Assembly (NCBI GenBank): GCA_019915135.1
Contig: JAHLMK010000051.1
Coordinates: 1 to 41,595, forward strand
Length of the DNA: 41,595 nt
Reading direction: 5' to 3'
Source of the DNA: Strobilurus pachycystidiatus
Taxonomy: Eukaryota; Basidiomycota; Agaricomycetes; Agaricales; Physalacriaceae
Position 1 is the first letter of the stretch. The number at the start of each line of letters is the position of its first letter. A model generated the notes under the pieces. It had not been told where the DNA came from. It saw only the letters and a program-made list of their open reading frames with translations, and searched no databases. A program made the position numbers and the translations under genes. Below, one piece after another: positions 4,732 to 41,595 of the stretch.

Positions 4732-4748
4732 TAGAGTCCCCAACGAGT
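4732..4748 (+). repeat. hAT copy 1 5' terminal inverted repeat
   Basis: TAGAGTCCCCAACGAGT, a perfect inverted match to 12416-12432, preceded by CTTCTGGT. The same end recurs at 24020, 38578 and 40284. Confidence 0.93.
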
Positions 4749-12415: not shown

Positions 12416-12432
12416 ACTCGTTGGGGACTCTA
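12416..12432 (-). repeat. hAT copy 1 3' terminal inverted repeat
   Basis: ACTCGTTGGGGACTCTA, the complement of 4732-4748, followed by the target duplication CTTCTGGT (12433-12440). Confidence 0.93.
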
Positions 12433-16405: not shown

Positions 16406-16811
16406 TGCTGTCGGGTTCGGTTTCAAGGGCGGGAGAATTCTGGGAGGAAGGGCAGCAGGCATTGAGTGACTCGGTGGGAGGATCTGAGTAGGGGCGGGTT
16501 AGCTCGTCCAGCGGCACTTTGCGTGTCAGCGTTGGCAACTCGGTATGTGGCGCACATTGTTACTGGGACGCTCTGATCTATCTTCTAGTTATCCTTTGGC
16601 CTATCAACGCATCTGTTACCATACACCTCTCTAATCTTTGCGCGCCCTTTGGTATGTTTTTTTTTCACCGCCCGCCTCCGACTTTTCCTGACCTGCACCA
16701 TAGGTCGCTCCATTCATTTCCGGACACGTTCATTCATAGACTTCTCGTTCTCATGTATGTATAACCCCCCTCGCGTATCTCTACCTGACTAAACGTACCC
16801 GCCGCAGGAAA

Positions 16812-19800
16812 ATGAAACCCTCCGCCTCCCTATCTTCCCAAAAGAAAACCTCCGCTCCTCGCGCCAAGCGGCCGGCTGCCGGACCAGCTTCAGACGCAGG
16901 ATCCGACGCAGAATCCAGCGAAGAGGACCCCGACCCACCACCCGCCGCGAAACGTAAGAAGAAGACGCTTACCGACAAAGCTGCCTCCGATCTCGAAGAC
17001 GACGACACAGCGGCGCCCAGTAAAGTAAAGAAGCGCCCCAAGGCGCGCAAGAAGCGGAAGGCAACCCCCACTCCCGAACCAATCATCATACTCGAAGACG
17101 ACAAAGAGGATGGAGAGACTATCTCGTCTGCGCCGGAGACTCGCGCTCAGCAGCGTGTCAAATTGGAGAAAGCAATGAGTAAGCTCTTGTCTGTCTCCCT
17201 CAAGGCTACATACTAATGTCCTCCAGAGGATGCTTCTTGGACGTCCGCCGCTTACAAGCACTTTCTTCCGAAGGAAACCGTTCTTATCCGCTGGATGAAA
17301 ATTCGCGGTGACTTTGACTGGTATCAAGAATTCACCTGTCGCTAGTGCGTATCTTTGTTTTGTATCTGACCGGCTGCTAACATACCCTTAGTGACGAGTC
17401 CACCTATGCGCATCGCAAATGCAACGACTACGGCACCTCCAATCTCCACAAACACATCAATAACTGCCGTGCCAAGAAGACTGCAGATGCTGGCGAGACG
17501 CAGACGACGGTCGAGGCGTTTGCAAAGGGGAGTACCTTCTCCACTGGCAAGCTTCGGTGGCTGCTCGCCAAATGGGCCGCCGTCAATCATCGTCCATTTC
17601 TCATCTGCGAGGATGGTCCCTTCCGCGAGATTATCGAGATGTTCGACGCAAAGGCGGCCGCCTTGATCCCGTGCGCAACTACGGTCTCCTCGGATCTGAA
17701 CGAGATCGCTCGCATGACCAAGGATGAGTTGAAGAAGTTTCTACATGTGCGTTCATCCCCCGTGCCTTCGAATGGACAATACTCATGATTTCCCTAGTCA
17801 TTTGGTGGTGCGCTGCATCTGATCTTTGATGGATGGGCGGCTCCCAACGGCGGGGATGTCCTCGGCCTGCTGGTGGCGTTCTGCTACAAAGGAAAGATGA
17901 CCGTAACTGGTCTTGATATGCTCCCGTAAGTATCCTGGTTCAATTCATTCTCCCCTCTCTAACATTCCCCTCAGGCTTAAGAAATCACACACTGGCGACT
18001 ATCTCGCCGACGTTGCGTATGACGCGCTTGACTGGTACGAACTTCTTGACAGGGTACGCTGCTTCTCTATTCCTCTGGTCTTGTTCTTACGTTAGTTCGT
18101 AGTTGTTGAGTTCGGCGGGTGACAATGCCTCGAACAACAACACATTCGTGTCGGCCATGAACCTCAAGCTCCCAGCAAACCATATCTTTGGGTCTGACAC
18201 TCGCATCCGCTGTGCTGGTCATATATGCAACCTCATCAGTCAAGCCATCTACGGCACCTTCATCAAGACCAAAAAAGCTATCAAAGTCGACGAGCATGCT
18301 GACGCCGACACCCATCCCGACGAAGAGGATCCTTTCTCACTCTCACGCGAAGAAGCTGAGGAAGATGGCGATCAGGATGATGAAGAGGACGCTGGCGGGG
18401 AACCCAACCGCGAGGAGGATGATGAAGACGCCGTCCTCAATAGTTTGCAAAAGGCGATGCAGGATATGGCTGACGAGGAGCTCGACGATATTCTTTTTGG
18501 CCTTGAGGAGCTGCAGGATGTTGATCAGGATGAAATTGCGTATGGGAAGTCCGTCTTGACGAAGGTATGTAACCTCATCAGCGCGCTCATGCCTCACTAA
18601 TTCTTGAGTAGTTGTACAAGTTTGGCCGTCGTGTTTGGAACAAGCAGGCCCTCCAGAACGAACTTGCAGAAATGTGCAAAGCGAAGCGCATTGCCGTCCT
18701 CAAGATGATCCGCGCCGTTGTCACTCGCTGGAACACCCACACCAATGTCATTGCCCGTGCCCTTGAACTTCGCCCCGCCATTGATGCCATGTGCCAGGCT
18801 CTTCGCAAGGGCAAGGGGAAGAAGCAAGCACGCACATTAAAGCGATATGCTTTAGATGAGGAGGATTGGCACTTCCTCAAACAGCTACACACTCTCTCAA
18901 AGGTTTGTTTGTTTTGTTGTCCGTTTAACATTCTCCTCATCCTTTGACAGCCCCTCATAGATATAACGGAACGTATGTCCAAGTCCGCCGTTCCCCTCTT
19001 ACACGACATCATACCTCTCATGGACGCCATGAATACCGATTACGAAGCCGTCATCGCCAATCTCAAGGGTGAATACAGGCTTGCTATTCGCTATGCGGCT
19101 ATGCGTGCGCGCGCCATCTTGAATAAGTACTATGCTCTCACGGACGACAGCATAATGCCACGCATGGCAATGAGTACGTCTCTTTCTTTATCCCGGTTCT
19201 CAAATGCTAACTTATCTTTAGTGTTACGCCCGGACAAAAAACTTGAATGGTTCCGTGCTCACAATTGGGAGGTGGAGTGGATCGTAACTGCCTCAAACAT
19301 CATGCGCGACACATACAATACGTACTACAGACCCCGCGTCACCACCTCTGCATCTGCCATACCTGCCGCCACTTCCACTGACGAGCCGCTTAGTGCTGTC
19401 GAAAAACTCCTTCGCGCAAAGCCCGCGGACACCCGATATACTGCTAATCCCGTTGAGGACTGGCTGTCGTCTCCGTGTTTCACATGTTCCGACCCGCTTC
19501 GCTACTTCTACGATCTGCTTGATCCCATTCCCGAGGAGGGTGAACGAGAGATTACACCAGGTGGTGCGTTTGCCCAGATGGCTTGCGACTTTATATCTGC
19601 TCCAGGTACGTTGTGGCCATCCTATGTCTTGCCATTGTTTGATATAATTTGTAGCTGCGTCAACTGATGTTGAACGTCTATTCTCGCACGGTGGTCTTAA
19701 TGTGACGAAGAAACGCCATAATCTCAAGGAACAGACGACGGCAGCGCAGACGCTGATGAACGGTTGGGTCAAGGACGGTCACGTTCCTGTCAACAAGGTT

Positions 19801-19866
19801 ATCAAGGTACTCAATGATAAGCGTAAGCGGAAGCGTGATGACCCCGTCGTTACTGACGCTACTTAA
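16812..19866 (+). CDS. hAT transposase (copy 2, intact frame)
   Basis: Ten exons: 16812-17178, 17227-17344, 17392-17746, 17798-17925, 17975-18053, 18103-18564, 18612-18902, 18951-19173, 19222-19605, 19655-19866. They give 2619 nt and 872 aa with no frameshift: exon 8 here reads MRARAILNKYYALTDDS, where copy 1 has an extra GC. Domain order and catalytic Asp/Asp/Glu are as in copy 1. The gene looks translatable, but its element has lost the 5' TIR, so it could at most act in trans. It also shows what the copy 1 gene should look like. Confidence 0.9.
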
Positions 19867-20164
19867 TCTCGCGCCTGTACAGACATTCTTCATATCACTA
19901 CTACATTACCAGCTAAGACTTTCGTTATATATTCACGGCTTTATATCTACTTGCACCATGTTACATAGCTGATTTTACGTGTATACTCGCCGGGTACCTG
20001 CTCTAATACTCGAGTAGGGTGATACCCGGATATATATTCATCATACTCGTTACTTACCCATACTCGTACCCGCTTAAGTTGTACTCGGGTAACGGGTATG
20101 GGTTGGGCCAGACTGTGAGTGTGTGAATCCCTTGCAGGTAGGGTATTGCGATACTCGGGTATAT

Positions 20165-20181
20165 ACTCGTTGGGGACTCTA
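20165..20181 (-). repeat. hAT copy 2 3' terminal inverted repeat
   Basis: ACTCGTTGGGGACTCTA, followed by CTTCTGGT at 20182-20189. The duplication is on the border with gypsy 1 RNase H. Confidence 0.9.
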
Positions 20182-21750
20182 CTTCTGGTGCGTCTACGCT
20201 ATGTGTATTTAAAGAGAAATGAATTTGTGATATAAAATACTCCGGTTTCAACAATGTGACATTCTCGTTGTCTTTCTCCCCCCGGTCAAGGCCTGTCATC
20301 CTTGACAAGGCATCTGCCTTCCCCATTGTCTTCCCCGGCTTGTGCGTCAACTGGATATCATACTCCCCCAACTCTGTGACCTATCGTGCTTGCCTCCGAT
20401 TCAACTTCTGGGGTTTTCTAAAGTACTGCAAGTTTTGATGGTCCGTAAATACTTCAATCGTCTCCTTTGCTCCTAATAGATACTGTCTCCACTCCTCCAT
20501 TGAGTCCATAATGGCCATCATCTCCTTGTCGTATATCTCATAATTCCTCTCTGTCTCATTCAATGCTCGTGACCTAAAGGCGACCGGTCGCCACTTCCCG
20601 TCAACAAACTGGGATAGCACTGCTCCATTTGCGTAGTCCGAGGAGTCTGCCTCCACTCGGAACTTGCTAGTCTCACGTGGGATGAGTAAGACCGGGTCCT
20701 CCGCAATCCTTCTTTTCAACTTGTCAAAAGCGTCCTGCTGCTCTTGCTTCTAGACCCACTCGGCATTGCCAGTGAGTTGGGTAAGTGGTCTAGCCACCCC
20801 GCTGAATCCTCGGATGAAGCGTCGGAAGAAATTGCAGAAGCCGAGAAAGGACTGGACTTCCTTCTTCTTGGTTGGCTCCTTCCATCCCGTGACCGCCGAC
20901 ACCTTCTTTGGATCCATCCTGATCTTCTCGCTTCCTACAATAACTCTTAAGTATTCTACCTTGTTTACCTCAAACTCGCACTTCTCCGGTTTAAATACAG
21001 TTTGTTCTCACGTAGTATCTCTAATACTTGTCGTACTATCTGCCTATGCTCTTCTAGAGTATCGGTAAAAATAAGAATATCGTCTAAATATACTATAACA
21101 TGTCCTTCATCAATAAGCTCCTTCAAGATGTGGTTCATAAAGGACTGAAAAGTTGCCAGCGAGTTTGTGAGTCCAAAGAACATTACCAAGGGTTCAAACA
21201 AACCCCGGTTAGTTCTGAAAGCCGCCTTCCATTCGTCTCTGTCCTTGATCCGCACATTATTAAAGCCCCATCTGACGTCCATTTTTGTAAACCACTTTGC
21301 TCCCTTCAACTTGTCAATGAGCTCTTGGATCAATGGCAGTGGATATCGGTTCTTGATAGTCATATCGTTGAGTTTGCGATAGTCCTGAACCGGTCGCAAA
21401 CTGCCATCCTTTTTCCGTACAAAGAAGAAAGGAGACGCCATTGGTGAGGTTGACGACCGAATGCGTCCCGTGCAAATGTTCTCCTCCAAGAACTCATCTA
21501 ACGCCTTCTGCTCTGCTGGGTTAAGGGGGTACACCTTGCAATCAATCAGTTTGGAGCCCGGGGTGAGTTTGATGGCATGATCCCACGGTCTCCGCTCTGG
21601 TAATTGATCAAAGTCCGCCTTGCTGAACACGTCGGCAAACTCGTTGAGATAAGGTGTCGCCGCCGGTGAAGCCTGTGTCCTTAGCTTCTGCCCCGCTGTG
21701 CAATATGTGTCCCAGTCCATCCAAAAAAGCCTCTCTCCCTCCTCCAACTT
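20182..21750 (-). pseudogene. Gypsy 1 reverse transcriptase and RNase H (5' half of pol)
   Basis: It follows the protease in the same frame after a TAG. RT motifs are clear: [31 protein letters not shown], and the catalytic YLDD at 21079-21090. RNase H follows (VEADSSDYANGAVLSQF, SRALNETERNYEIYDKE, FTDHQNLQYF), then IQLTHKPGKTMGKADALSRM and the hAT insertion. Breaks: in-frame TAG at 21751-21753, a 1-base loss near 20988-20994 (LYLN where LYLKPEKCEF is expected), TAG at 20750-20752 and TAG at 20381-20383; the last two are where Trp is expected (TGG to TAG). This copy cannot make a full Pol without repair or suppression. Confidence 0.9.
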
Positions 21751-24565: not shown

Positions 24566-24883
24566 TGTGACGGGAAGCACATCAGTAAGGTTAGGGTTAC
24601 TCCCTTATACGTAGATTACCGCGCTCCGCACCTGTATTATCTTTACTATCAACACCGTTCTTGCATGCTTATCTCCTGATTCCCGTCGCGCCGGCTGAGC
24701 GCTCCTGAGACCGCTCCCCGACGACGGGTCACATCGTCTCTTTAGCCAGAGTTACAGGCCAACGGACTCCGATTACGGATATCTACATACTCGTACTCGG
24801 ACGACTACACGCGTATACGACTACGCTATCGACATCCGACCCTCTCCTGGCGAGAAGTCTTACTTATCCTGGGCCCGATTACA
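24566..24883 (+). repeat. 5' LTR of gypsy 2
   Basis: 318 bp, TG to CA ends, apparently identical to 36815-37132. It should carry the element's promoter. Confidence 0.95.
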
Positions 24884-24884
24884 G

Positions 24885-24902
24885 TGGTGGGGAAACCCGG
24901 GA
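24885..24902 (+). promoter_or_regulatory. Putative primer binding site of gypsy 2
   Basis: TGGTGGGGAAACCCGGGA starts one base after the LTR. A TGG start matches the CCA end of a tRNA, so a tRNA primer is likely; the tRNA species cannot be named from this window. Confidence 0.5.
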
Positions 24903-24992
24903 CTTCACCAAGCCAGGTGGAAGTCGGATAATACTCTCATCACAACCGCTGCACGGCAGACGTCAGCCACCGTTTGGAAAGAAATCGGAACG

Positions 24993-25124
24993 ATGGCTGC
25001 TGAATGCGCCCGTTGCGAGACGGAAGCGAATATGAGCAGAAGGTATCCTGGCTGCTGTATGCGCCGTGGTTCGGCAGCCAAGGACCCACTTCTCGCAGGG
25101 TTGCGCATTTGCCGTGGCGTTTGA
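24993..25124 (+). CDS. Upstream ORF in the gypsy 2 leader, doubtful
   Basis: 43 codons, starting ATGGCTGCTGAATGCGCC within the first copy of the 16-nt motif. The second copy (25050-25065) lies in the same ORF but in another frame. It ends before the Gag-Pol ATG. No function is recognised; it may be a regulatory upstream ORF or chance. Confidence 0.25.
   Translation: MAAECARCETEANMSRRYPGCCMRRGSAAKDPLLAGLRICRGV
24995..25065 (+). repeat. 16-nt motif, copies 1-2 (leader)
   Basis: GGCTGCTGAATGCGCC at 24995-25010 and GGCTGCTGTATGCGCC at 25050-25065, in the untranslated leader of gypsy 2. Confidence 0.9.
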
Positions 25125-25204
25125 CAGTCATTTACAAATTTGGCACGTTTCATCAGAAAATTTCAGTCTGTTACGCTCTCCCAGCTACTCCCAACTTCTA
25201 GTTT

Positions 25205-27338
25205 ATGTTTGCTGCGCGCGCGTCTACTCCCGACTCACAGCCTAACAAACAGAAAAACAGACGCGCAGTGTCAGACACCGCGGCAAATTCCAGGAGGACG
25301 AATCCGAAGAAGACGACTCCCGTCCCTCCGCAACCAACACCAGCCCCGTCCTCCTCAGACGCAGCGAGCTCGGAAAGAAAACTCTGGTCACCGTCGGAGC
25401 CGTTATCGCCTTTGACCCCGCTTCCGCACCCCAACACCCGACAGAACCCGTTTTACAAGGCGGTCACCCCTTGGACCAATCACAAAACCACCAAGTTTAC
25501 CGCGCCGCTCGGTGAATTACCCCCGTCATCTTTGAACTTCGCCAACGCGCGCGTAGGCTTAACCGTGGCGACTCCTCGCAACTTTGGTTTGGCAACGTCG
25601 ATGGGTGGGCAAGGTTCAGGGAACAGAAAGGAGGCTGCTGTAGGCGCCAAGGAGAAGAATTCGGCCGCTGAAGGCGCCGGGAAGGATGAGGGTGATACGA
25701 CGTTAGACTCCCCGACCCCGGCTCGCGTGCGTCGGGCGTCAGTGGGTAGTCGCGCTTCGGTGGCTAGCTCGGGTCTCTTAGAGGTCGAGCCGTCGGAGAC
25801 CGGGAATTCTAGCATTGTGGAAGATCTGTCTATTGATGGTGGTCTTACTAGCATTTCTTCCCAACCTAGGGAGGAGGGAGCTAGAATCTTCACCTCTGTC
25901 GGCAAGGGGTATCCAATACACAACGAGACGCTCGCGCAGTCAATCGCCCGTTGGTATAAATTCAACCTTACTCAAGATGAGGATCCCTTGGCTCGGTACG
26001 GCTTACAGGACTCATGTCTTCCGGGTCGTAGTCATCAGTCTACGCTGAACATTCGAGACGCTATCATTCGTTGGCAGTATCCTATGGAGACTGTCTGGTC
26101 CGATCTGGACCAAGGCATTGAAGACCGTCTCGACTATCGTCCAACCTCCGCGCAGCTCCGCAAATACCAAGTTCGCAATGCGAACGAGTCGGGCGCGAGG
26201 CAGGTATATTACTCTGTGGGAAAGGGTGAAAACGACCTGTGGTTGTGGGGCCATGTTGTCTTAGCTCTCTCTCAAGTGGTCGATGTTCTGAATTACGAGA
26301 TTCGCCCAGAGCATCACATTAGCTTCCGTGTAGACCCAGAATTCACGCTTCTCCGTCTGCTAGAAGCTGCCCCTTCACGCGAGATTGTATTGACGACCAT
26401 CTCAACGCTCCAGCGGCGTTTGAAGAGCGGTCGTTCCCACGTCAAACAGCTCATCAACGCCCTACGCGTAGTGCACCTCCCTCAGATACCTCTGAGCGAC
26501 GTCTCCTCGTACGACTCTACCGTCGATGAGGTGCGAGAATACGAGGCGCGTCAGCTAGGTGAACGAAGGTTGGCCAATCTCGTATTGCGTCCAGGCTATG
26601 CCGAGATCGCACAAACCTACGCGCCTGGATTCCTGGCAGAGGCGTTAGCGGCAGCTCGAGACGATAGATCAGTTCCTTCGCCTTCTAACGGGTATTATAA
26701 GCCCAAAGTTGGAGCTGACAACAGGCGCCTGCCGTCTGAGTGTCTTTCAGGCCAACATGTAGCCTTCAATGACCCGCAAGCTTCCATCACAGCGTCCATA
26801 GCGGCCAGGCATCGCCGTACGGCTGCGGAGACGCCCGCAACGCCTACCTCGGTACCTCACGCTCGCGTCGACGTGGATATGAACAACCCCTTCGTGGCAC
26901 ACTCGACGCCCAATCCCTCCGGAGCTGCCGCAGCCCAGTCAGGGCAAAGAACCACGGACCATCCTATCTCGGCCGGTCCAGGTATCTACCGCTTGAATCC
27001 TCTACCCGGCCTGGCGACGGGGACGGCTGGGGGGCCACTGAATCAGCCCGCGAAACTGAATTCCGCTTCAGGATCAGGAATGTCTAACCCTGGCGGGTTA
27101 GGTTCACAAGGCTATTGGGTTGGTGGATACCATTACCCCGTCCACGGAGGTGGCGGTGGGGGCGGCGCTGGAGGAGGCGGAGGTGGCGGAGGTGGAGGTG
27201 GCGGCGGCGGCGGAGGACCAGTGGGCGGAGGAGGTGGAGGAATCGGAGGCGGTGGAGGCGGAGCACCCCCTGGAGGGGGTGGAGGCTTGGGCGGCGGAGC
27301 CCCTCCAGGAGGTATACCTGGAGGAGGTGGAGGTGGAG

Positions 27339-27369
<31 letters not shown>

Positions 27370-30300
27370 AGGCGGCGGACCTGGGGCTGCTGTAGGCGCC
27401 TATGGTCCGGGACCCGAAGTGTGGCAGATTAATCACAAGATCAACACTAGCGCCATTCCTTCCTGGGATAGTCGGGGAAGTTCGCTCATCGCGTATCTGG
27501 TATCCATGGCGGATCTCGTGCGTCTGGGAGACGCCGTCCGCACTGCGGTAGCCGCAATTGCTCCCACGCGTTGGACGGGTAGTGCTTCCGCATGGTGGCA
27601 AGCTCTTACGGAGGCGGACAAGATTTACTTATCGAGTAGCTGGGACAACTTGTTCCGTGCTATTCGTGACCGCTTCATGCATCAGACATGGATCACGGAG
27701 AGACGTTTGGAGTTTGACTCCATCCGTTTCCGTCAGCATGGGCATGATGATGAGGAACCCGAAGCCTTCCTCATCAGGCGTCTCAGTCTTCATCCTTACC
27801 TCTTCCCCGGAGAAATGGATGGCCCCACTGTTGTTGCACGAATCCTGTCTAATGCGCCGAGTGAATGGTCCCTGTACCTCAACGTTCGCAACTGTCCGAA
27901 CGTCTATGAGTTATTGCTCACCTCGTCTTCATATCGCCAAGTGCTGATAGACTGTTATACGACCTCCTCACGCCGTTTCATCAATCGCCGGACCCCCTAC
28001 CGAAGAGATGCTAAATCGGTCAGCTTGGAGGAAGTTGAAGACCCGGAAGCTGAATTCGATCCTCGACTCAGCACAGAACAACGCGAAGTCGCTGCAGTCA
28101 ATCGTCGGAAGGAAAACGAGCGGAAACGTCTCAATCCCTCCGACTTTCCCCAAGGAAAAACCGTGAACGGTTACGAGTTTACGAGGAGGGATGACGTGCA
28201 CAGTCCACGTCCTCCAACAAATGGTGACTGCTACGTCTGTACCAGCCCAAAGCATTTCGCGAGGGACTGCCCGCACTATGGCAAATGGACCACTCTCCGG
28301 AACGCACACCTTATCGAGACGGACCGTACTTTCGAAGATGAGATGGCGGAGGAAGCGGAGTACGTAGCAATGCTTGTTGAAGCTAGAGAAGAATCAGATG
28401 CTCGTGTTTCCGCGTACGAAGAGTCGGGGAATCGTAATGAAAGGAGGAGGCGTATGTTTGAGCAAGGATCCAGAGGAAAGGGAAGGGCTGCTGAAGGCGC
28501 CTCGCATGTGGAAGAGAATTACAAGGCTGCTGAAGGCGCCTCCGTGTCGATACCTCGTCGAGTCAGACGACGTCCCAAATTTGGAGAAACTCAAAGCAGC
28601 GCTAAGAAGGTAACCTTCGAAGCGTCCTCTCATCCTTCCATTCCCTCTTCGTCCACTTCCGAAGCGCGCCCGTTCGTAACCATACATCCAGCTCGTTCGC
28701 GACCCGATGGAATGGGGGCTCTGGGAACCAAGGCATTGCATATCAAGGTTCGCCTGAGCGATCCCGAAGCGGAGGACATTGTAGGCAGACTGGATACGGG
28801 TGCCGACATAACCCTGATTTCAGAAGAGTACTGCCTGCAGCACTCCGAAATACCCAAACCTAAGGATGGGCTGAAGATGACTCTCTACCAGCTCACGGGG
28901 GACGCTAAGGTTCTTGGTTATGTCCGGATTCCTATGTTCGTAGAGACCGAGGACGGAGAGACTCTTCGTTTCCTTACAGAAGCCTATGTCGTACGAGGAA
29001 TGAAGGTCCCACTGTTGATTGGAGAGGATTTCCAATCCTCTCACGTCTTCAGTATCCTTCGTAATGCGGATGGGCATCACCTTGTCCGCGTAGGGCATAC
29101 GAAATTCCACATCCCAGCATCCTCCTCCACGGAAGTGGACTTAGGTTTCGAAATACGGCAAGCCTTCAAAGCTCAGTCTTTCGTACGGCGTCTCTCAAAC
29201 CGACGGGCCAAACGTAGAGCTGCTAAAAAGGACCTCTTCGCGGAATACCAGGATTCAGAATCGGCGGATCCTAAGGAGGTGTACGTGAGAGCCGCGCATG
29301 ATTACATCTTGCCGGCTAGCTCAGTAGTACGGATAGAGGTACGAGGTCCTCTACAGGATCGAGAGGAATGGATCGTCGAGAAGGTGGTGCTAGGACAGGA
29401 GGATGGCACGGTGCTGACCGCCCCTACAACGTTTATCTCTCCCGAGGATCCTTACCTTCCTCTGGCTAATCCGTCAACCACACCGAAGTATATTCAGGAG
29501 GGGGACATTGTGGGCTTACTGAAAGACCCTAGTGAATATCTTGACATCCCAACGACGGAAGATGAGAGAGACGCCATGATCAGTGTGGCTGTGGCTCTGA
29601 AGAGCATCGTGGATGCCAGGCTAGCAGAAGACAAGGCGAAGGGAACGGCAGCTGAATGCGCCGGCAAGAAGGGTGCTAAAGGGGGGGGGAACGCATGTAA
29701 TACGGCTGCTGAAGGCGCCGCGGGTTTGGAGGCTGGGAATGAAGCGAGTCACAAGAACGTGGCTGCTGACCGCGTCAGAGAGATGGGCAGAGATTCGGAG
29801 AATGATGAGCAATGGGGTCCGAAGGTGACTGCTCTTCCTCCTGATCCGGACGATCACCGTACCGAGGTCACTGAGCTCGTTAATTTTGGGGAAGACGTGC
29901 CGGAGGAATTCCGCGAACGCCTGAGAAACGTTATCTTGAAGAATGAGAAAGCGTTTGGGGTGGATGGACGTCTAGGAGAAGTGGATGCAGAGGCAACCAT
30001 CCCGCTGAAGGAGGGCACCAAGCCCGTCTCCCTCCCCATGTATTCTGCTTCTCCGGCTAAGAGGGAAGTCATCGAGAAACAAATGAAGGCTTGGATAGAG
30101 GCGGACGTTATCGAACCATCTGTCAGCCCTTGGGGAGCTCCCTGCGTCGTAGTATTCCGCAACGGCAAGGCTAGGTTAGCCGTGGACTATCGCAAACTTA
30201 ATGCGGCCACCGTCCCCGATGAATTCCCTATTCCACGGCAATCCGAGATCCTTCAGGCTTTATCTGGTGCCCAAGTCCTCTCTTCCTTCGATGCACTGGC

Positions 30301-33300
30301 AGGTTTTACCCAGCTGCGGATGTCGGATCCAGCTAAAGAGCGCACGGCGTTTCGATCCCACATGGGCTTGTGGCAATTCAAACGAATGCCTTTCGGGTTA
30401 CGAAACGGTCCTTCGATCTTCCAGCGATTCATGCAAGAGGTGTTGGCCCCGTACCTGTGGCTGTTTGCGCTGGTGTATATTGATGACATTGTTGTGTTCA
30501 GTAAGACCTGGGAGGAGCACTTAGAACATTTAGACGCCGTTTTGGGTTCTATTGCGAAGGCGGGAATTACTCTATCCCCTTCTAAATGTTTCGTCGGCTT
30601 CTCCAGCATCCTTCTGCTGGGGCAGAAAGTTTCGCGACTGGGATTGTCAACTCACGAAGAGAAAGTTCGAGCCATCCTCGACTTAGAGCGACCACATAAT
30701 GTCGAGACTCTCCAGCAATTCCTCGGCATGGTGGTTTATTTCTCCGCGTACATACCCCACTACGCATTCATTGCAGCCCCCTTGTTCCAGCTTCTACGGA
30801 AGGGAGTCAAGTGGGAATGGGGGGCGGAGCACGAGATTGCCTTCGATCAAGCGAAGCACGCCCTGGCCGCCGCACCTGTCCTAGGACACCCAATCATGGG
30901 CTCCCCTTACCGGTTGTATTCGGACGCGAGCGACTACGCGATAGGTGCTAGCTTGCAACAAGTCCAGCTCATACAGATCAAAGACTTGCGAGGAACTCCC
31001 ATGTATGAGCGGTTAGAAAAGGCTCATGCAGCCGGGCTAGCGGTTCCGTCACTCATAGCCTGTCATGACAAGGAGATGATAGTGAAGGAATGTCCTGCGC
31101 CGATGGTATGGGCACCCCACTTCGAGGATACTGTAGTGTACGTGGAGCGAGTAATCGCATACTGGAGTCGCTCCCTGAAGAGCGCGGAACGCAATTACAG
31201 CACCACCGAGCGCGAAGCCTTGGGGGTGAAGGAAGCTCTGATCAAGTTTCAGCCCTTCATCGAAGGAGAACTCATCACCTTGATCACGGACCATGCCGCT
31301 TTACAATGGGCCCGGGCGTATGAGAACGCGAATCGCCGTTTAGCTGCGTGGGGAGCGGTCTTTGCCGCTTATCCAGGCCTGAGGATTATCCATCGTCCCG
31401 GGCGTGTTCACTCGAATGTGGATCCGTTGTCCAGACTGCCTCGCACCCCAGCCCATTCCTCACCGTTACGATCTGCGGACTCTACTAAGCCGATCATACC
31501 GGGAGACAACACGTTGGAGAGATCTCGTCAGTTGGAGGAGGAGGAGGGACGGAGACCGGCTAAGAAAGCTGTCTTCACGGCGATGTGGATGGAAGATATT
31601 ACCGAAAGAGAGGTCAACACTAGGACACGGGAAGAGTCAAGAAGGGAGGCTGCTGAAGGCGCCAGAAGGAAGGAATTGGAAAAATTGGCCGCTGAACGCG
31701 CCGAAGACGAGGGGCTGGAAGTAGAAACTGTGGCGTCCGAACTCCCGTTCGCTCGATCCGACCCATGGACCTATCCTTTGGGCATGCAGCAGTCGGACAT
31801 ACCTTCCGCTCCTGATCTAACAGACGACGCCCACTTGCTAGTGGGAATGAGTCCCGAGTTCAAGAAACGTTTCGTTGACGGTTACGCCAGGGATCGCTTC
31901 ATGAAGACCAAGTACTACACTGAAGTCCCAAACGCTGAATCCGTCTTAACGGCCTCTCGCTTTGTGAAGGGTGAAAATGGGTTACTGTACTTCATCGACG
32001 CCGATTGGCAGTACCGGCTATGCGTCCCCAGACCCATGATCGCAGAAGTCCTCAAGCTCGTGCACGAGGAGCCATATGAGGCCGCACACGAAGGATCCCA
32101 TAAGTTTTACCTTCGAATGGCGGAAACATTCTTCTGGCCCTCTATGCAGAAGGACGTGGAGGATTTCACGCGTACTTGTGATGTGTGCCAAAAAGTCAAA
32201 GTGGATCGCACTAGGAAGATGGGTGGATTACGTCCAGCACATATTCCTAGGCGTCCGTTCTCCACAATCTCCTTGGACATGATAACCGGTCTTCCACCTT
32301 CGGGACCGGAAGGTTTTGATGCGATACTAGTAGTGGTCGACAAACTCACCAAGTACGCGGTCATCATACCGACTCATGGCTCTCTGAACCAAGTGGGCTT
32401 TGCCAAGCTGATCATGGAGAGGATAATCAATGTGTTTGGAATGCCCGATCGCATTATCGCAGACCGAGACAAACGATGGACTTCAGTGTTCTGGCAATCC
32501 GTTATGGAGCGCTACGGAGGCACCATGGCTGTGTCTACGGCTCATCATCCCCAAACGGACGGCCAAACAGAGATCGTTAACGCCACCATAGAGCAGATGC
32601 TTCGCGCCTACGTAGCAAAAGATCGGACGACCTGGGCTGCTTGGCTCAGCGAGATTGCCCGCGCCTACAACTCCTCGGTTCACTCTAGTACGGGGTATGA
32701 ACCCAACAAGCTATTGTTCGGGTATCGCCCCGCAATCCTTGGGAGTTTGGTCTTACATACTCAGGATCCAGTATCTCGTCCGTTCTTGGCTGGACAATCT
32801 GGGCGAGAGTTTGCCGAAGCCCTCGAATTCCACCGACAGGCGGCCCGAGACTCACTCGCAGTAGCTCAAGATAAGCAAGCGCGAGCGTACAACAAAGGTC
32901 GACGTCCCGTGGTGGAACTACAGGAAGGGGATTTAGTACTGGTGAATCCACACACGTTGGCTCTTGTCGACGCTCAAGGGACGGGTCGTAAGCTAATTCA
33001 GCGTACGATTGGTCCTTTTGAAGTCCTGGAGAAAGTGAACCCCTTGGTGTACCGGCTCCGCCTGCCAGACAACTACCCGATGCACCCGGTTCTCAATCTG
33101 GCGCACCTCAAGAAGTACCACCCTTCCGACGATCGTTTTGGAGAGCGAACTAAGCTTCCCCCTACTCGAGACATGAAATTGGCTTCTACTGAAGCTGAAG
33201 TGGAAGCTATATTGGGACACAAGGACGTTATCACCAGTAAGGGAGCGCAAAGGTATTACTTGGTCCGCTGGAAAGACTTTGACCCAACGGAAGACGAGTA

Positions 33301-33382
33301 CATTTCGGAGTATGCTATTCGTAACGCACCCCGGATTAGAAGGGAGTATTTACATACGATCCTCGGGGAGAAGGTAGAGTAA
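25205..33382 (+). CDS. Gypsy 2 Gag-Pol polyprotein with chromodomain, 2725 aa
   Basis: One uninterrupted frame. Residues 1-640 form a long extension: Pro/Ser-rich, then a folded-looking part at about 220-480 (LAQSIARWYKFNLTQDEDP). A poly-Gly tract covers about 648-725 and a Gag capsid-like domain about 740-925 (SASAWWQALTEADK). A CCHC knuckle CYVCTSPKHFARDC lies at 1009-1022. Protease is at about 1190-1300 with DTG at 1197-1199, RT at about 1635-1800 with YIDD at 1758-1761, and RNase H from about 1900 with first Asp 1907 and a roughly 65-residue insertion before ERVIAYWSRS. Integrase starts at about 2287 (HEEPY..H, C2325-x2-C) with catalytic D2358, D2420, E2456 (D-x35-E). A chromodomain lies at about 2655-2722 (YLVRWKDFDPTEDEY). 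All catalytic residues are present, so it looks functional. AAxxA pentapeptides encoded by the 16-nt motif separate the domains. Confidence 0.95.
25633..25678 (+). repeat. 16-nt motif, copies 3-4
   Basis: GGCTGCTGTAGGCGCC (25633-25648) and GGCCGCTGAAGGCGCC (25663-25678), starts 30 bp apart, encoding AAVGA and AAEGA in the N-terminal extension of Gag-Pol. Confidence 0.9.
27146..27379 (+). repeat. GGN repeat encoding poly-glycine
   Basis: About 234 bp of GGN codons, broken by AGG/CCA/ATA-type codons (PVGG, PPGG, IPGG). It encodes a Gly-rich linker between the N-terminal extension and the Gag capsid-like domain. Mixed third bases (GGA, GGT, GGC) show it is more than a simple trinucleotide run. 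It is prone to length change and assembly error. Confidence 0.9.
27385..27400 (+). repeat. 16-nt motif, copy 5
   Basis: GGCTGCTGTAGGCGCC, encoding AAVGA (residues 728-732) between the poly-Gly tract and the capsid-like domain. Confidence 0.9.
28486..28540 (+). repeat. 16-nt motif, copies 6-7
   Basis: GGCTGCTGAAGGCGCC at 28486-28501 and 28525-28540 (39 bp apart), encoding AAEGA twice between the zinc knuckle and the protease. Confidence 0.95.
29647..29776 (+). repeat. 16-nt motif, copies 8-10
   Basis: GGCAGCTGAATGCGCC (29647-29662), GGCTGCTGAAGGCGCC (29704-29719) and the degenerate GGCTGCTGACCGCGTC (29761-29776), spaced exactly 57 and 57 bp, between protease and RT. The degenerate copy still allows the same stem with one G-U pair. 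Confidence 0.88.
31648..31702 (+). repeat. 16-nt motif, copies 11-12
   Basis: GGCTGCTGAAGGCGCC (31648-31663) and GGCCGCTGAACGCGCC (31687-31702), 39 bp apart, encoding AAEGA and AAERA between RNase H and integrase. Confidence 0.9.
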
Positions 33383-33576
33383 GACGGGTTATTTCCGTCC
33401 GGGTCATATGATCTGAGTTGGGTACCCGGGTCTTTTACCTTCTCTGACTCCTTCATCTTCCAAGTTTTCGCGCGGACGCTCCAGTCCTAGCTCTATCGTA
33501 ATTATCGGCAGCTGAAGGCGCCTTAATATAGATTTCCTTACCTTTTTCACAGCTTAACCACCCCGGAACCCCGACT
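33383..33576 (+). other. Spacer between Gag-Pol and the first downstream ORF
   Basis: Non-coding. It includes GTCCGGGTCATATGATCTG and the 16-nt motif copy 13 at 33507-33522. Whether the downstream ORFs have their own promoter here cannot be told. Confidence 0.5.
33507..33522 (+). repeat. 16-nt motif, copy 13 (non-coding)
   Basis: GGCAGCTGAAGGCGCC, in the gap between the Gag-Pol stop and the next ORF, so its conservation here cannot be due to protein coding. Confidence 0.9.
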
Positions 33577-34641
33577 ATGGATTCAGGACGAGAGCAAGCT
33601 CGGAGATGGGGAGAAAGCGTCGAGAGGAAGAGCCAGGCTGCTGTATGCGCCATTTCGGACGGAACGAAACTCTTGGCTGCTGAAGGCGCCGAAGTCTTTG
33701 ACTTGCGAGGACTGGATGAGGGCGCAAGCGTGGTCATCACGCGGGAGCTGTATCAACGGATCGTGACTAGACGAAGCACCCCCATCGCACCCTCGCTTCG
33801 GCTCCGTTCTCCTCCACTATCCTTTCGCAGCGGGTTCTCCATGGTCCGCTATATAGGAGCAGGCCTTAGCATGCGTCTCCCGGAATTCCGAACGGTACCG
33901 AATCGGTTTGAAGCCATCTGGTCCGGAGAGGCGGGAAATTATCGCTTCTGGAGTCCGAACGCGTCGCGCTCATCGATCTGGGAAATCGACGTCCGCCCAT
34001 ACTACCCCGGTATTCGCCCTCCTAATTATCCCATCCTGCAAGACTCTCGGGCTCCCCATGACCAATTCCTCGACGGTTCTGTCGGTCCTTGGGATCCCTC
34101 CCGTGTTCCCCAACTCTTCCATGATGACTACCCGTACCTTCCTTGTATCGTCCGACCTCATAACGTCCGACGACTACCCTTCGATCAAATCCGGGTGGAA
34201 CATATACCCCTTTGCTTGGTTTGGCAAGGAGGAATAGGCATGGGCTCATGTCATCCTGACTTCATCACCGCCTTACTCGAGCGCAACACGCGTTTGGATC
34301 AGCGGATGGACGAGTTATGGGCTGCAAAGCCTGTTATGCATCGCTACAGCCGGCCGTCCTACCCACAACGGAAGGACATACATCCATTTTCGTCGGGTGT
34401 CAGACAATACGATGAAGTCCTGGGCCCCATCTCCTGCATCCAACGGGCATTGAAGATCAAGGCCGCGTGGTGTTGGTTCGCCCAATCCGCACCGTCCCAT
34501 CATCTCAAGGAGTTAGTCGGTGACTTGGAAGACGCTCCCCCCGAGGAGTGGCCGCGGTTTCGGGAGATGGTGCCGGCGGATCCTCGTTTGATAGGACTTT
34601 GGTTGCATGATTGCCCGGGGAAATCGGATTATATCTGCTGA
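33577..34641 (+). CDS. Gypsy 2 downstream ORF A, unknown function, 354 aa
   Basis: Starts MDSGREQARRWGESVER, 195 bp after the Gag-Pol stop. Residues 21-25 (AAVCA) and 34-38 (AAEGA) come from two motif copies. A Trp/Pro/Tyr-rich part follows (YRFWSPNASRSSIWEIDVRP, HIPLCLVWQGGIGMGSC). No signal peptide, membrane span or enzyme motif is recognised; in position it is where env would be, but it does not look like an envelope protein. The last 30 nt overlap ORF B in another frame, so A and B may be one protein joined by a frameshift or split by one wrong base. Confidence 0.75.
   Translation: MDSGREQARRWGESVERKSQAAVCAISDGTKLLAAEGAEVFDLRGLDEGASVVITRELYQRIVTRRSTPIAPSLRLRSPPLSFRSGFSMVRYIGAGLSMRLPEFRTVPNRFEAIWSGEAGNYRFWSPNASRSSIWEIDVRPYYPGIRPPNYPILQDSRAPHDQFLDGSVGPWDPSRVPQLFHDDYPYLPCIVRPHNVRRLPFDQIRVEHIPLCLVWQGGIGMGSCHPDFITALLERNTRLDQRMDELWAAKPVMHRYSRPSYPQRKDIHPFSSGVRQYDEVLGPISCIQRALKIKAAWCWFAQSAPSHHLKELVGDLEDAPPEEWPRFREMVPADPRLIGLWLHDCPGKSDYIC
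33636..33690 (+). repeat. 16-nt motif, copies 14-15
   Basis: GGCTGCTGTATGCGCC (33636-33651) and GGCTGCTGAAGGCGCC (33675-33690), 39 bp apart, near the start of ORF A. Confidence 0.95.
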
Positions 34642-35510
34642 ACTTCATACGGGCGCCGGCTTTCGTAGTAGAAGCGTTAAGGGAGATTCCAGCCGACAAA
34701 GAGGTACACGCAGACGCCTATGCCATGGCCGGTCTCGTAGCCGACGAAAGCCCAGCCAACAACGTCTTCGTATCTGAGACCCTTTTCTCCGTCCCCGTTG
34801 ACTCTAATGTTCGGGTTCGATTCCCTCACCCTCCGTTCCGAACTTTGGAACACTACGGGGAAGAACAAGAGCATATACGCGCCCGAGACGAGGCGTTGAC
34901 TGAGGCTCGTCAGAAATGGGACGCCAAGCAATCCCGCGACCCCGCTCGTATTCCTAGCTCTGTCATCCTGGATCCACTGAGAGTGCCATGGATCAATCCA
35001 CCGCCCATTGCCGCCGCTCACCCTGGCACGCTCTCATACTGGAATCAGGAAGAAGATGACAATCAGTGCTTTGCACAGATCATGAAAAGCCATCGGGGCC
35101 AGTCAAACCGCAATCTGGTGTTCGACCGAGCTAACGGCCGTCGTCTTGGCCTAATCGAGTCGATACCCATACCGAGAGGCGTGCTGATGTCCGAACAGTT
35201 TGGATTCCCAGCTCCGGCCGAATGGGAGTTCTTCAGCTTTGGGCGGGGGCATAAAGTTCTACCCGTGCGAGAACGTCAGCGAGTCGAAGCCTCCACTTGG
35301 CTTTACTTCTCAGAACACCCAAAGAAGGGCTACCCCGCCGGAACCATGATGGAGGAGCCTCGGAAGGAAGATCTACCGTCGCGGTACGATCCGCCACCCG
35401 CGCAGAGCGAAGATGAGTACGACGAGGTGGATTGGGGTGATGAACCTTGGGCAGGAGAAGCTAATGATGTGCAAACGGAGGCTCCAACCAAGGGGGTGCC
35501 GAACGAATAG
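34611..35510 (+). CDS. Gypsy 2 downstream ORF B, unknown function, about 299 aa
   Basis: The frame opens just after a TGA at 34608-34610 and has no good ATG at its start (TTG first), which suggests it is the continuation of ORF A after a shift within TTGCCCGGGGAAATCGG (34611-34627). It contains RAPAFVVEALREIPADK, a charged helix (EQEHIRARDEALTEARQKW) and an acidic C-terminus (EDEYDEVDWGDEPW). It ends in TAG (35508-35510), and the same frame reopens at once into ORF C. No family is recognised. Confidence 0.65.
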   Translation: MPGEIGLYLLNFIRAPAFVVEALREIPADKEVHADAYAMAGLVADESPANNVFVSETLFSVPVDSNVRVRFPHPPFRTLEHYGEEQEHIRARDEALTEARQKWDAKQSRDPARIPSSVILDPLRVPWINPPPIAAAHPGTLSYWNQEEDDNQCFAQIMKSHRGQSNRNLVFDRANGRRLGLIESIPIPRGVLMSEQFGFPAPAEWEFFSFGRGHKVLPVRERQRVEASTWLYFSEHPKKGYPAGTMMEEPRKEDLPSRYDPPPAQSEDEYDEVDWGDEPWAGEANDVQTEAPTKGVPNE

Positions 35511-35528
35511 GCGCCCGAGGAAGAAGCG

Positions 35529-36797
35529 ATGAGCGTCGAGGATTACTCCAGACCCCGAGGAGAGGAGAACATAGAGACCGAAGAGGTCGAAGACGCGCGA
35601 GGGGATTGGACGGACAACGGGCTGGCCGCTGAATGCGCCAAAGTGGGGAAGGAAGTTACGCCAGAAGTGCCCGTGGAGCGACGAGTGACGGCGCCCGAAC
35701 ACCACACTTCGATAGTCGTCTCTGATTCTGTGGATATGGTACCCGCTGGGCCTTCCGAGCAGGATATGGCCGCCTTAGACGAGTCTCGTCGCGAAACGGC
35801 CCAAGCCTACGATTCGTCTCGACGCAAGAGGAGTAGACGCCGGAAGGTTGTAGACATAGACACTAAGCCTGTCTACGGGTACAAACCCAAAGACAACGCG
35901 ACTGTCTTCGACGGGGGCGCGAACTATAATCTCCCGGATGACCTTCTCTGGAATCACGATCGTCCAAGGGAGGGCCAATCAACCGCGCCTTCCTCGGTGT
36001 TGCGACTACAGACGGTCCCTTCGATGACTGCGTCTATCAAGATTGAGGACGTTCTCGCAATCCTCACGCACTGCGCCGCGCAGGCAGACGTGAAATTCAC
36101 CACTAACAGGGCTTGCCTATCCGCTCTGCGCACGGAAAGTGGAGCGTTGCTCTCAGCTCCAGTAGCCTATTTCGAAGCAGCGGGCAGTAACAACGCCGCC
36201 ATACTCCGCGGGCTCATGGGAGGTTATGTGGGTGAGGGAAAGCCTGGCAGTCGATATGTAGTGGCGGTTTCCTGGGTTACACCCACGCATTTCGAGGAGA
36301 CGTGGCGAGCTTGCCCGGTCGAATTTCGCCACGGAGAGAGGATCCGTCACCAGCCAGCCAAAGACTCTGCGAGAGCAGCCTTGTGGGATCCAAACTCCTT
36401 GGCGGCCCAGGAATGCAGGTTCCGCGTTAAGGAATGGGCATCGCCATTCGTACCGCCCGTTATCCTGCATTACGAGGATACGGTCAGCTATCGGGGTACT
36501 AGAGCTGGACATCAAGTGCGTTCCCGCCGCAACCAGCCATACCCGGTCAACAACCAAGGGCCTCCGTCGTATTATCCCTCCCCGCATCAAGGATACTACG
36601 AGGCGTCCTCGCGTGGTCCACGGACCCTCCCATCATCGTCGATCCCTCTGATGAATCGTCTAGGGATCCCTCCGCCTTTAGCCGATCGTCTAAGTGGTTC
36701 CGTCTCGAAAGATCCCAGCACATCGGCACAAGCGTCGTCATCGGCGCCGTCGTCATCCCGACTTCCACCCACGGGGCCGCGCGCCATGCGGAAGTAA
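35529..36797 (+). CDS. Gypsy 2 downstream ORF C, unknown function, 422 aa
   Basis: The ATG lies 18 nt after the ORF B stop, in the same frame, so a single TAG separates the two. AAECA (residues 33-37) comes from motif copy 16. A basic NLS-like cluster (RRKRSRRRK) at about 98-106 is followed by a globular part (IKIEDVLAILTHCAAQADVKF, AILRGLMGGYVGEGKPGSRY) and a Ser/Pro-rich tail ending before the polypurine tract. It is possibly nuclear. No known domain is recognised. Confidence 0.72.
   Translation: MSVEDYSRPRGEENIETEEVEDARGDWTDNGLAAECAKVGKEVTPEVPVERRVTAPEHHTSIVVSDSVDMVPAGPSEQDMAALDESRRETAQAYDSSRRKRSRRRKVVDIDTKPVYGYKPKDNATVFDGGANYNLPDDLLWNHDRPREGQSTAPSSVLRLQTVPSMTASIKIEDVLAILTHCAAQADVKFTTNRACLSALRTESGALLSAPVAYFEAAGSNNAAILRGLMGGYVGEGKPGSRYVVAVSWVTPTHFEETWRACPVEFRHGERIRHQPAKDSARAALWDPNSLAAQECRFRVKEWASPFVPPVILHYEDTVSYRGTRAGHQVRSRRNQPYPVNNQGPPSYYPSPHQGYYEASSRGPRTLPSSSIPLMNRLGIPPPLADRLSGSVSKDPSTSAQASSSAPSSSRLPPTGPRAMRK
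35624..35639 (+). repeat. 16-nt motif, copy 16
   Basis: GGCCGCTGAATGCGCC, encoding AAECA near the start of ORF C. A half-motif (GAATAGGCGCC, about 35504-35514) spans the ORF B stop. Confidence 0.88.
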
Positions 36798-36799
36798 TC

Positions 36800-36814
36800 T
36801 AACCTGGGGGGCTC
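36800..36814 (+). promoter_or_regulatory. Polypurine tract region of gypsy 2
   Basis: TAACCTGGGGGGCTC lies directly before the 3' LTR; the G6 run is the likely plus-strand primer region. It is short and not purely purine. Confidence 0.5.
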
Positions 36815-37132
36815 TGTGACGGGAAGCACATCAGTAAGGTTAGGGTTACTCCCTTATACGTAGATTACCGCGCTCCGCACCTGTATTATCTTTACTATCA
36901 ACACCGTTCTTGCATGCTTATCTCCTGATTCCCGTCGCGCCGGCTGAGCGCTCCTGAGACCGCTCCCCGACGACGGGTCACATCGTCTCTTTAGCCAGAG
37001 TTACAGGCCAACGGACTCCGATTACGGATATCTACATACTCGTACTCGGACGACTACACGCGTATACGACTACGCTATCGACATCCGACCCTCTCCTGGC
37101 GAGAAGTCTTACTTATCCTGGGCCCGATTACA
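36815..37132 (+). repeat. 3' LTR of gypsy 2
   Basis: 318 bp, apparently identical to 24566-24883, followed by GTGAG (37133-37137), the right target duplication. Confidence 0.95.
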
Positions 37133-37137
37133 GTGAG

Positions 37138-37220
37138 GGTAGGTGTAAGGGGATGTCAAACGGTAGCGTGCCGAGCGACAGGGGTGTGTGGTGGGTGGTA
37201 AGAGGGTAGCTTCGATCTTC
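37138..37220 (-). other. Gypsy 1 5' leader, part next to the LTR
   Basis: The remaining 83 bp of gypsy 1 leader between the gypsy 2 insertion and the 5' LTR. It begins with GG, the last two bases of the small hAT's target duplication, and holds the primer binding site at its right end. Confidence 0.8.
37206..37218 (-). promoter_or_regulatory. Self-priming primer binding site of gypsy 1
   Basis: On the minus strand AGATCGAAGCTAC lies 2 nt inside the 5' LTR. It is the exact complement of GTAGCTTCGATCT within the LTR itself (37330-37342). It does not start with TGG, so tRNA priming is unlikely; this matches the Tf1 type, where the start of the transcript folds back to prime. It predicts transcription starting at about 37343. 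Confidence 0.75.
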
Positions 37221-37677
37221 TGTCAGCACTGACTTAACCACAGGGCTAAACCAGGCACCACACAGATAATCTAACTAAAGGGAAGAGCGAGTATCGAGTC
37301 AAAGTCTGGCTAGGCCAGGTGTATAGACGAGATCGAAGCTACAGACTACACAGTAACCTACTTGCTTATATACGTGTCCACTACTGACTACCCTTTGCCC
37401 TAGCCCCTTGTCCAAACCTGTTTTCTCCAAGGATATTAAGCACTGCCTTGGTTCTATGACGCTCCAGATTCCCTCCATGTGTCTCCTGCACGACAATAGC
37501 CTGCTAGCCATGAGGTATGATGTCAGACCATGCTGCCAACATGTTGTGTGTCAAGGAGTATGAATGATGTCACTAGGGGACGTCTCTGAGACACGGATAA
37601 GGGATAAGATATGATGAAGAGATATGATAGGTGATAAGATGTGAAGGATAAGATGAAAAGATAGTCCATTCGTAATA
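37221..37677 (-). repeat. 5' LTR of gypsy 1
   Basis: 457 bp, about seven differences from 2656-3112. Its outer end reads CGTAATA instead of CGTAACA (one C to T), followed by the target duplication GCAGC at 37678-37682. It looks like a solo LTR until matched with the left one. Confidence 0.88.
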
Positions 37678-40283: not shown

Positions 40284-41595
40284 TAGAGTCCCCAACGAGT
40301 ATATACCCGAGTATCGCAATACCCTACCTGCAAGGGATTCACACACTCACAGTCTGGCCCAACCCATACCCGTTACCCGAGTACAACTTAAGCGGGTACG
40401 AGTATGGGTAAGTAACGAGTATGATGAATATATATCCGGGTATCACCCTACTCGAATATTAGAGCAGGTACCCGGCGAGTATACACGTAAAATCAGCTAT
40501 GTAACATGGTGCAAGTAGATATAAAGCCGTGAATATATAACGAAAGTCTTAGCTGGTAATGTAGTAGTGATATGAAGAATGTCTGTACAGGCGCGAGATT
40601 AAGTAGCGTCAGTAACGACGGGGTCATCACGCTTCCGCTTACGCTTATCATTGAGTACCTTGATAACCTTGTTGACAGGAACGTGACCGTCCTTGACCCA
40701 ACCGTTCATCAGCGTCTGCGCTGCCGTCGTCTGTTCCTTGAGATTATGGCGTTTCTTCGTCACATTAAGACCACCGTGCGAGAATAGACGTTCAACATCA
40801 GTTGACGCAGCTACAAATTATATCAAACAATGGCAAGACATAGGATGGCCACAACGTACCTGGAGCAGATATAAAGTCGCAAGCCATCTGGGCAAACGCA
40901 CCACCTGGTGTAATCTCTCGTTCACCCTCCTCGGGAATGGGATCAAGCAGATCGTAGAAGTAGCGAAGCGGGTCGGAACATGTGAAACACGGAGACGACA
41001 GCCAGTCCTCAACGGGATTAGCAGTATATCGGGTGTCCGCGGGCTTTGCGCGAAGGAGTTTTTCGACAGCACTAAGCGGCTCGTCAGTGGAAGTGGCGGC
41101 AGGTATGGCAGATGCAGAGGTGGTGACGCGGGGTCTGTAGTACGTATTGTATGTGTCGCGCATGATGTTTGAGGCAGTTACGATCCACTCCACCTCCCAA
41201 TTGTGAGCACGGAACCATTCAAGTTTTTTGTCCGGGCGTAACACTAAAGATAAGTTAGCATTTGAGAACCGGGATAAAGAAAGAGACGTACTCATTGCCA
41301 TGCGTGGCATTATGCTGTCGTCCGTGAGAGCATAGTACTTATTCAAGATGGCGCGCGCACGCATAGCCGCATAGCGAATAGCAAGCCTGTATTCACCCTT
41401 GAGATTGGCGATGACGGCTTCGTAATCGGTATTCATGGCGTCCATGAGAGGTATGATGTCGTGTAAGAGGGGAACGGCGGACTTGGACATACGTTCCGTT
41501 ATATCTATGAGGGGCTGTCAAAGGATGAGGAGAATGTTAAACGGACAACAAAACAAACAAACCTTTGAGAGAGTGTGTAGCTGTTTGAGGAAGTG
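40284..41595 (-). mobile_element. hAT copy 3, 3' part, inserted in the older hAT
   Basis: TIR TAGAGTCCCCAACGAGT at 40284, then a 3' region nearly identical to copy 1 in reverse (about one difference noticed in the subterminal part). The 8 bp before it, GTCGGGAC (40276-40283), should recur at the other end outside the window. It is a separate insertion from copies 1 and 2, so the family has moved recently. Confidence 0.88.
40599..41595 (-). CDS. hAT transposase (copy 3), exons 7 (end) to 10, partial
   Basis: Exon parts are 41595-41563, 41514-41292, 41243-40860 and 40810-40599. The frame is intact and lacks the GC insertion of copy 1 (reads MRARAILNKYY). It includes the hATC domain with ASTDVERLFS. 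The 5' part lies beyond the window, so whether the whole gene is intact is unknown. Confidence 0.9.

Follow-up and report, generated by a model that had tools for sequence, protein, structure and literature searches.

A 16-nt motif repeated in sense orientation along a Ty3/gypsy retrotransposon of Strobilurus pachycystidiatus, a candidate dispersed RNA signal

In the present study, the window refers to the whole 41,595-nucleotide (nt) stretch of Strobilurus pachycystidiatus DNA (assembly GCA_019915135.1, contig JAHLMK010000051.1), and the subject is a 16-nt motif, GGCNGCTGWANGCGCC, of which sixteen copies are found in a single long terminal repeat (LTR) retrotransposon of the Ty3/gypsy type, located at 24566-37135 on the forward strand. 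The 5' LTR (24566-24886) and the 3' LTR (36815-37135) are direct repeats matching at 321 of 321 nt, or 318 nt when delimited by the TG...CA ends. The LTR pair flanks, on the same strand, a gag-pol open reading frame (ORF) of 2725 amino acids (25205-33382) in which reverse transcriptase (RT), RNase H and integrase follow one another in this order, which is the Ty3/gypsy layout. Pfam matches above the cut-off were obtained in this ORF for RVT_1, RNase H, Integrase_H2C2 and SH3_Tf2-1, whereas rve and Retrotrans_gag scored below it, and a chromovirus-like feature was seen as a Chromo match at residues 2665-2711 with 22.2 bits against a cut-off of 25.1. A third ORF (33577-36797, forward strand), for which no Pfam match was found, is broken in the window element into the listed ORFs A (33577-34641), B (34611-35510) and C (35529-36797) by a shift of frame separating A from B and a stop separating B from C. 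In two further copies of the element, on contigs C19 and C17, it is a single open frame of 1088 and 1092 amino acids, respectively.

A pattern search of the window gave fifteen exact matches to the motif, all on the forward strand and none on the reverse strand, and when up to two mismatches were allowed the degenerate copy at 29761-29776 was the sole addition. These are the sixteen positions given in the earlier note, and its placing of all of them on one strand of one element was found to be correct. All copies lie between the LTRs, spanning element positions 430 to 11059 (10.6 kb), and none was found by pattern search in either LTR. Two are located in the leader (24995-25010 and 25050-25065) and ten in the gag-pol ORF: at 25633-25648 and 25663-25678; at 27385-27400, before the capsid region; at 28486-28501, after the zinc knuckle, and 28525-28540; at 29647-29662, before RT, followed by 29704-29719 and the degenerate copy; and at 31648-31663, between RNase H and integrase, and 31687-31702. 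One copy (33507-33522) sits between gag-pol and the third ORF, and three are in the third ORF, at 33636-33651 and 33675-33690 in piece A and at 35624-35639 in piece C. A long poly-glycine tract with internal repeats (27100-27384) lies in the gag-pol ORF directly before the copy at 27385.

The copies are clustered, with the previously described spacings of 39 bp (three times) and 57 bp (twice). Seven of the fifteen gaps between neighbours are 70 nt or shorter, against a mean of 1.4 under random placement, and such a count was reached in 1 of 10000 trials. All ten gag-pol copies fall outside the best Pfam stretches, in linkers between domains. The copy in piece C, which had been placed at the beginning of that piece, lies within the third ORF. 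The thirteen copies in ORFs share one reading frame (xxG GCN GCT GWA NGC GCC) and twelve of them encode Ala-Ala-x-x-Ala; this peptide had been ascribed to every coding copy, which does not apply to the degenerate one, encoding AADRV. The remaining three copies, described as non-coding, do lie outside the main ORFs, but the first of them sits in a short upstream ORF. No exact match arose in 100 dinucleotide shuffles, against 15 observed. Moreover, in the proposed shuffled-codon control, 1000 synonymous shuffles that kept the proteins gave 0.056 copies on average and never more than 2, whereas the ORFs hold 12 exact ones.

The genome searched comprised 51.8 Mb in 61 contigs, from which the C labels used here are taken. 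A diverged relative of the window element on C17 (G000:C17:204833-237901) has the array at the same places. This relative is interrupted twice, the first time by another pol-related element (208789-213363) which is without the array. Its gag-pol protein shows 79% amino-acid identity to that of the window over 2526 aligned residues, and the nucleotide identity in aligned columns is 81% in the leader, 73% in gag-pol and 71% in the tail. The C17 element's own LTR pair is identical (321/321 nt), and therefore both the window and the C17 lineages appear to have inserted recently. Between the two, 440 of the 1389 four-fold sites lying outside the motifs agree, which is near saturation. For the comparison of copies, the site at 29704 was paired with C17:221538 by order and not by the aligner, and the site that is degenerate in both elements (29761, placed by the aligner on C17:221562) was excluded from the column counts.

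At the fifteen matched sites, the 13 fixed columns of the motif showed no difference in 195 cells, whereas the free columns differed in 20 of 45 (column 4 in 9 of 15; column 9 in 3 of 15, among them the copy at 27385, which has C in C17; column 11 in 8 of 15) and the ungapped flanks of six bases on each side differed in 91 of 180. Among the codon third positions, five of six are fixed (columns 1, 7, 10, 13 and 16) and column 4 is free, while columns 9 and 11 are free and amino-acid-changing. Since third positions are held and amino-acid-changing columns vary, which is the reverse of selection on protein, selection likely acts on the nucleic acid and the motif itself is likely selected. The earlier proposal of a constraint on nucleic acid rather than on peptide is hence supported by the column pattern in this comparison as well as by the synonymous shuffles. 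Conservation between window and C17 is as strict for the two leader copies and for that at 33507 as for the coding ones. The first leader copy begins within the ATG of the short upstream ORF in both elements, while the remainder of that ORF differs, and the reading frame of the second leader copy is not the same in the two. A leader fragment on C26 also aligns over both leader copies and keeps the first of them; one of its two copies is without one fixed letter.

The orientation of the copies is equally strict. By the stem pattern, 15 sense and 0 antisense copies were found in the window element and 16 and 0 in 36 kb of C17, so that the sense-only claim holds in two diverged elements. Coding is no hindrance to antisense copies, because none of the 32 spellings of the antisense motif contains a stop in any of the three frames. 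In the sense direction, the Ala-Ala-x-x-Ala frame alone is open in every spelling, and this can account for the frame that the coding copies share. The strand bias favours a reading on RNA.

Genome-wide, 50 exact matches were found, of which 46 are in the element family: 15 in the window, 15 in the C19 copy (nearly identical to the window element and bearing an insertion), 14 in the C17 relative and one each in the C26 fragment and a C28 fragment, the latter being the copy at 35624. The other four are isolated (C3, C8, C17:340097 and C30), and the 10 kb surrounding them have no similarity to the element. One mismatch added 40 sites, of which two (C17:219177 and C26:384714) are assigned to the family by position, against 47 (23 and 24) for the reversed-pattern control. 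Because 46 of the 50 exact matches are in the family and near matches are no more numerous than in the control, the motif belongs to this element family and not to the host. A motif of host genes was accordingly rejected, the exact copies outside the family being four in 51.8 Mb; equal frequency in host genes, named in the earlier note as a refutation, was not found. Neither the window nor the four stretches that surround the isolated sites gave an Rfam match.

The same note had named relatives keeping the peptide with freely varying third bases as a second refutation. In the nine closest database relatives of the pol protein (46-56% identity) the Ala-Ala-x-x-Ala pattern is absent, and no protein among 108 pol relatives carries it more than twice. 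The closest named relative is from Hypsizygus marmoreus, an agaricomycete, with 54% identity. When seven database relatives were aligned, the peptide was absent at all ten gag-pol sites, four of the seven not covering the N-terminal sites; the sites at 28525, 29647 and 29704 lie in stretches missing from the aligned relatives. Viral contigs searched with the pol protein gave no relative. Within the genome, a DNA scan of nine of the thirteen other pol-related loci, several as 10-kb stretches only, revealed no other dispersed array; the remaining four loci are two on C4, one on C43 and one on C14. Two of the nine scanned loci hold hairpin families of at least four copies, which are LTR-internal repeats (C5) and a low-complexity tract (C10), and neither is a dispersed array. 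As the nine closest relatives are without the peptide pattern and the scanned loci without an array, the array looks like an invention of one lineage, placed in the linkers between domains.

Taken on this evidence, our preferred explanation, to which we would give a little less than an even chance, is that the array is a dispersed cis-acting signal on the sense RNA, predicted to serve packaging or assembly and to be read by a protein of the element itself. A reading on RNA is supported by the sense-only orientation, the absence from the LTRs, the two leader copies and the preservation of copies outside the main ORFs; in retroelements, the leader is the usual location of packaging signals. That 46 of 50 exact matches are in the family suggests that the element itself encodes the reader. 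The nucleocapsid part of Gag or the product of the third ORF would read the array on genomic RNA, and by this reading the genomic RNA would be selected and condensed into the virus-like particle. Each copy would act as a small bulged hairpin, GGC-(N)-GC-[UGWAN]-GC-GCC, in which the groove would be opened by the free bulge, giving base-by-base access to the constant G-C pairs and to the fixed loop letters U, G and A; where two or three copies are clustered, binding would be cooperative. In arginine-rich motif recognition, a peptide reads base pairs in an opened groove, and a free bulge next to fixed G-C pairs is what is expected of it.

The sequence pattern agrees with the hairpin proposed in the earlier note in part. 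The fold leaves columns 4 and 7-11 unpaired, and the free columns 4, 9 and 11 are all among these. In 32 copies (16 each from the window and C17), four of the five stem pairs are invariant and the fifth has one G-U. The worn copies at window 29761 and C17:221562 have changed loop letters and kept stems, and the former retains its stem through the G-U pair.

Several observations, on the other hand, weigh against this explanation. No stem pair covaries in the 32 copies, which was the check suggested earlier for the hairpin; because four pairs never vary and the fifth shows a single G-U, these data do not bear on the pairing. Hairpin-binding proteins usually tolerate stem changes that preserve pairing, and such changes are absent here. 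The C17 copies were collected by a pattern that requires the stem, although an aligner blind to that pattern matched 15 of the 16 window sites to them. When folded alone, the three exact spellings form weak hairpins (-4.4 to -5.1 kcal/mol). With 60-nt natural flanks, the hairpin probability exceeds 0.5 in 5 of the 32 copies, and its mean is 0.22 against 0.19 with shuffled flanks. Folding does not discriminate among the predicted hairpin, pairing from copy to copy and the lack of any structure. Moreover, most of the interior of Ty3 (nt 429-4979) is reported to be dispensable in cis (PMC4974528, in the accessible text), and dispersed internal signals are therefore no general need of such elements. 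As to a reader protein, a word-based protein search gave no database homologue for pieces A and C, and AlphaFold models, made from two sequences each for an N-terminal Gag region and for piece A, were useless (mean predicted local distance difference test score of 33).

The third ORF shows a suggestive distribution. Homologues of piece A in the genome are confined to four carriers of the motif, namely the window, C19, C17 and the C28 fragment, and homologues of piece C are found in the same four and in one 27%-identity match on C28 which is without the array. All carriers belong to one lineage, hence the apparent co-occurrence of array and third ORF is weak evidence. The N-terminal Gag region was also considered as a co-occurring reader, and its candidacy is weakened as relatives without the peptide pattern possess that region at 24-32% identity. 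C17 conserves the arginine-rich stretches found close to the zinc knuckle and within piece C, and these may be nuclear signals. A bolder form of the proposal, which we consider possible but doubtful, is an RNA zip code in which about 16 near-identical bulged hairpins running through the leader, gag, pol and the lineage-specific third gene would have co-evolved with that gene and be read by its protein or by Gag, the 12-kb RNA becoming a multivalent scaffold for assembly. If this were true, no other dispersed packaging system known from a retroelement would be as clearly encoded in sequence.

Dispersed signals of this kind have a counterpart in RNA viruses. In the packaging signal of phage MS2, a 5' bulge and loop letters are recognition features according to the accessible text of PMC6281560 and PMC8472981, and in MS2 and other viruses many sites with a common motif are likewise spread along the sense RNA. 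As described there, however, the viral sites have different stems and share a short motif around which the sequence varies, whereas in the present array all copies except two agree in 13 of their 16 letters, the carrier is a retrotransposon and binding is a prediction. In LTR retrotransposons, the genome is brought into the particle by cis-acting RNA in the case of Ty1 and Ty3 (PMC4974528; PMC5454406), and our preferred explanation has this feature in common with them. These determinants are mapped mainly to the RNA ends and are single structures, and a dispersed array of identical copies was not found in the accessible text of the two sources. In the former, a review, localisation and packaging of Ty3 RNA are reported to depend on UTR (untranslated region) or POL sequences, and Ty packaging sequences are said to be not precisely defined (PMC4974528). 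In a literature search at title level, outside of which most subscription papers lie, no such array in Ty3/gypsy elements was named among the matches listed.

Two other explanations are live rivals. In the first, the self-complementary copies would be RNA stickers, each copy being able to pair with every other, whether both lie on one RNA or on two genomic RNA molecules, so that the array zips, dimerises or condenses the RNA with no protein needed at each site. One code common to all copies would explain why the stem letters are invariant even without pair-keeping changes, and the clustering fits. In 6 of 8 tight segments, close neighbours pair with each other in the fold of lowest energy (judged by eye). 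We nevertheless regard it as unlikely. A neighbour duplex exceeded a probability of 0.5 in 3 of 14 pairs with 20-nt flanks, in 1 with 60 nt and in 0 with 150 nt, and the duplex sites differ between the window and C17 lineages, so conserved cis pairing of neighbours was not found; nor does pairing alone account for the fixed loop letters and the sense-only orientation.

The second live rival, and in our view an improbable one, is that the copies are binding sites in duplex DNA, forming an insulator or regulatory array for a protein of the host or of the element. A fixed sequence without covariation is as expected for such sites, and there are precedents in LTR retrotransposons. Sireviruses, which are Ty1/copia elements of plants, have 8 to 32 copies of a short palindromic motif per element (PMC2829016), and this is the nearest case found of a repeated short motif in an LTR retrotransposon. 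According to the same paper, the Sirevirus motifs are symmetric and most share a CGG-CCG core; they occupy the LTRs and the region upstream of env, and a few are found where env begins. The present motif, by contrast, is asymmetric, with one extra base on the 5' side and GGC...GCC ends, is not found in the LTRs, is sense-only, and lies within coding sequence in 13 of 16 copies, the carrier being a Ty3/gypsy element. The Drosophila gypsy insulator, with 12 Su(Hw) DNA sites within 340 bp of the 5' untranslated region (PMC2374998, in the part available), is also an array inside a Ty3/gypsy element; it is a dense non-coding cluster, unlike the present copies, which are spread over 10.6 kb of mostly coding sequence. 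Further, sense-only orientation in both elements, the empty LTRs and merely four isolated exact sites in the host do not favour DNA sites, and the retention of stems by worn copies that have lost loop letters is not predicted for them. As regards the three readings offered in the earlier note, the RNA signal is therefore the one favoured and the DNA site stays in contention, whereas a recombination seam joining modules was rejected, the copies having no flanking sequence in common.

The remaining explanations are no longer live. An Ala-Ala-x-x-Ala linker or protease site at domain boundaries, with the nucleotide likeness as a by-product, would suit the one frame of the coding copies and their position in linkers between domains; it is very improbable in view of the five fixed third positions beside variable amino-acid-changing columns, the synonymous shuffles, the preserved copies outside the ORFs, the relatives without the pattern and a shared frame that is the only sense frame open for all spellings. 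A functionless mobile or duplicated mini-repeat, a seam or an insertion footprint, could be suggested by the several copies in stretches absent from relatives and by the origin of many copies in one lineage, but it has hardly any credit with us when copies without shared flanks keep 195 of 195 fixed cells at near-saturated divergence while neighbouring bases changed, and the lost fixed letter in the C26 fragment fits selection that has ended. Pausing of ribosomes at domain boundaries, caused by small G-C-rich hairpins, agrees with copies lying between domains in one frame and is just as implausible, because leader and intergenic copies are kept equally, the lone hairpins are weak and exact loop letters would be unneeded.

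As a series of near-identical, sense-only copies in a Ty3/gypsy element, the array differs from all the systems compared. It shows strong selection at the nucleotide level in the linkers of a polyprotein. The way in which LTR retrotransposons choose their own RNA is poorly defined, and the array offers a way in. Free and fixed columns within the same codons form a built-in control, and the question can be tested with short RNAs and recombinant protein pieces. Moreover, as the signal seems to have arisen in one lineage, its birth can be placed against relatives without the array.

Outside the element, the window holds further repeats. A 456-nt direct repeat, 98.7% identical, is present at 2655-3110 and at 37220-37675, the latter copy being just beyond the 3' LTR of the element. 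Long direct repeats about 7.75 kb apart, mostly 100% identical in the pieces listed, occupy 6257-13975 and 14009-21727 and are either a tandem duplication or tandem elements. A near-perfect palindrome of 60 nt occurs in two copies (8381-8440 and 16132-16191), and an inverted repeat of 1312 nt with 100% complementarity joins 18870-20181 to 40284-41595, extending to the end of the window.

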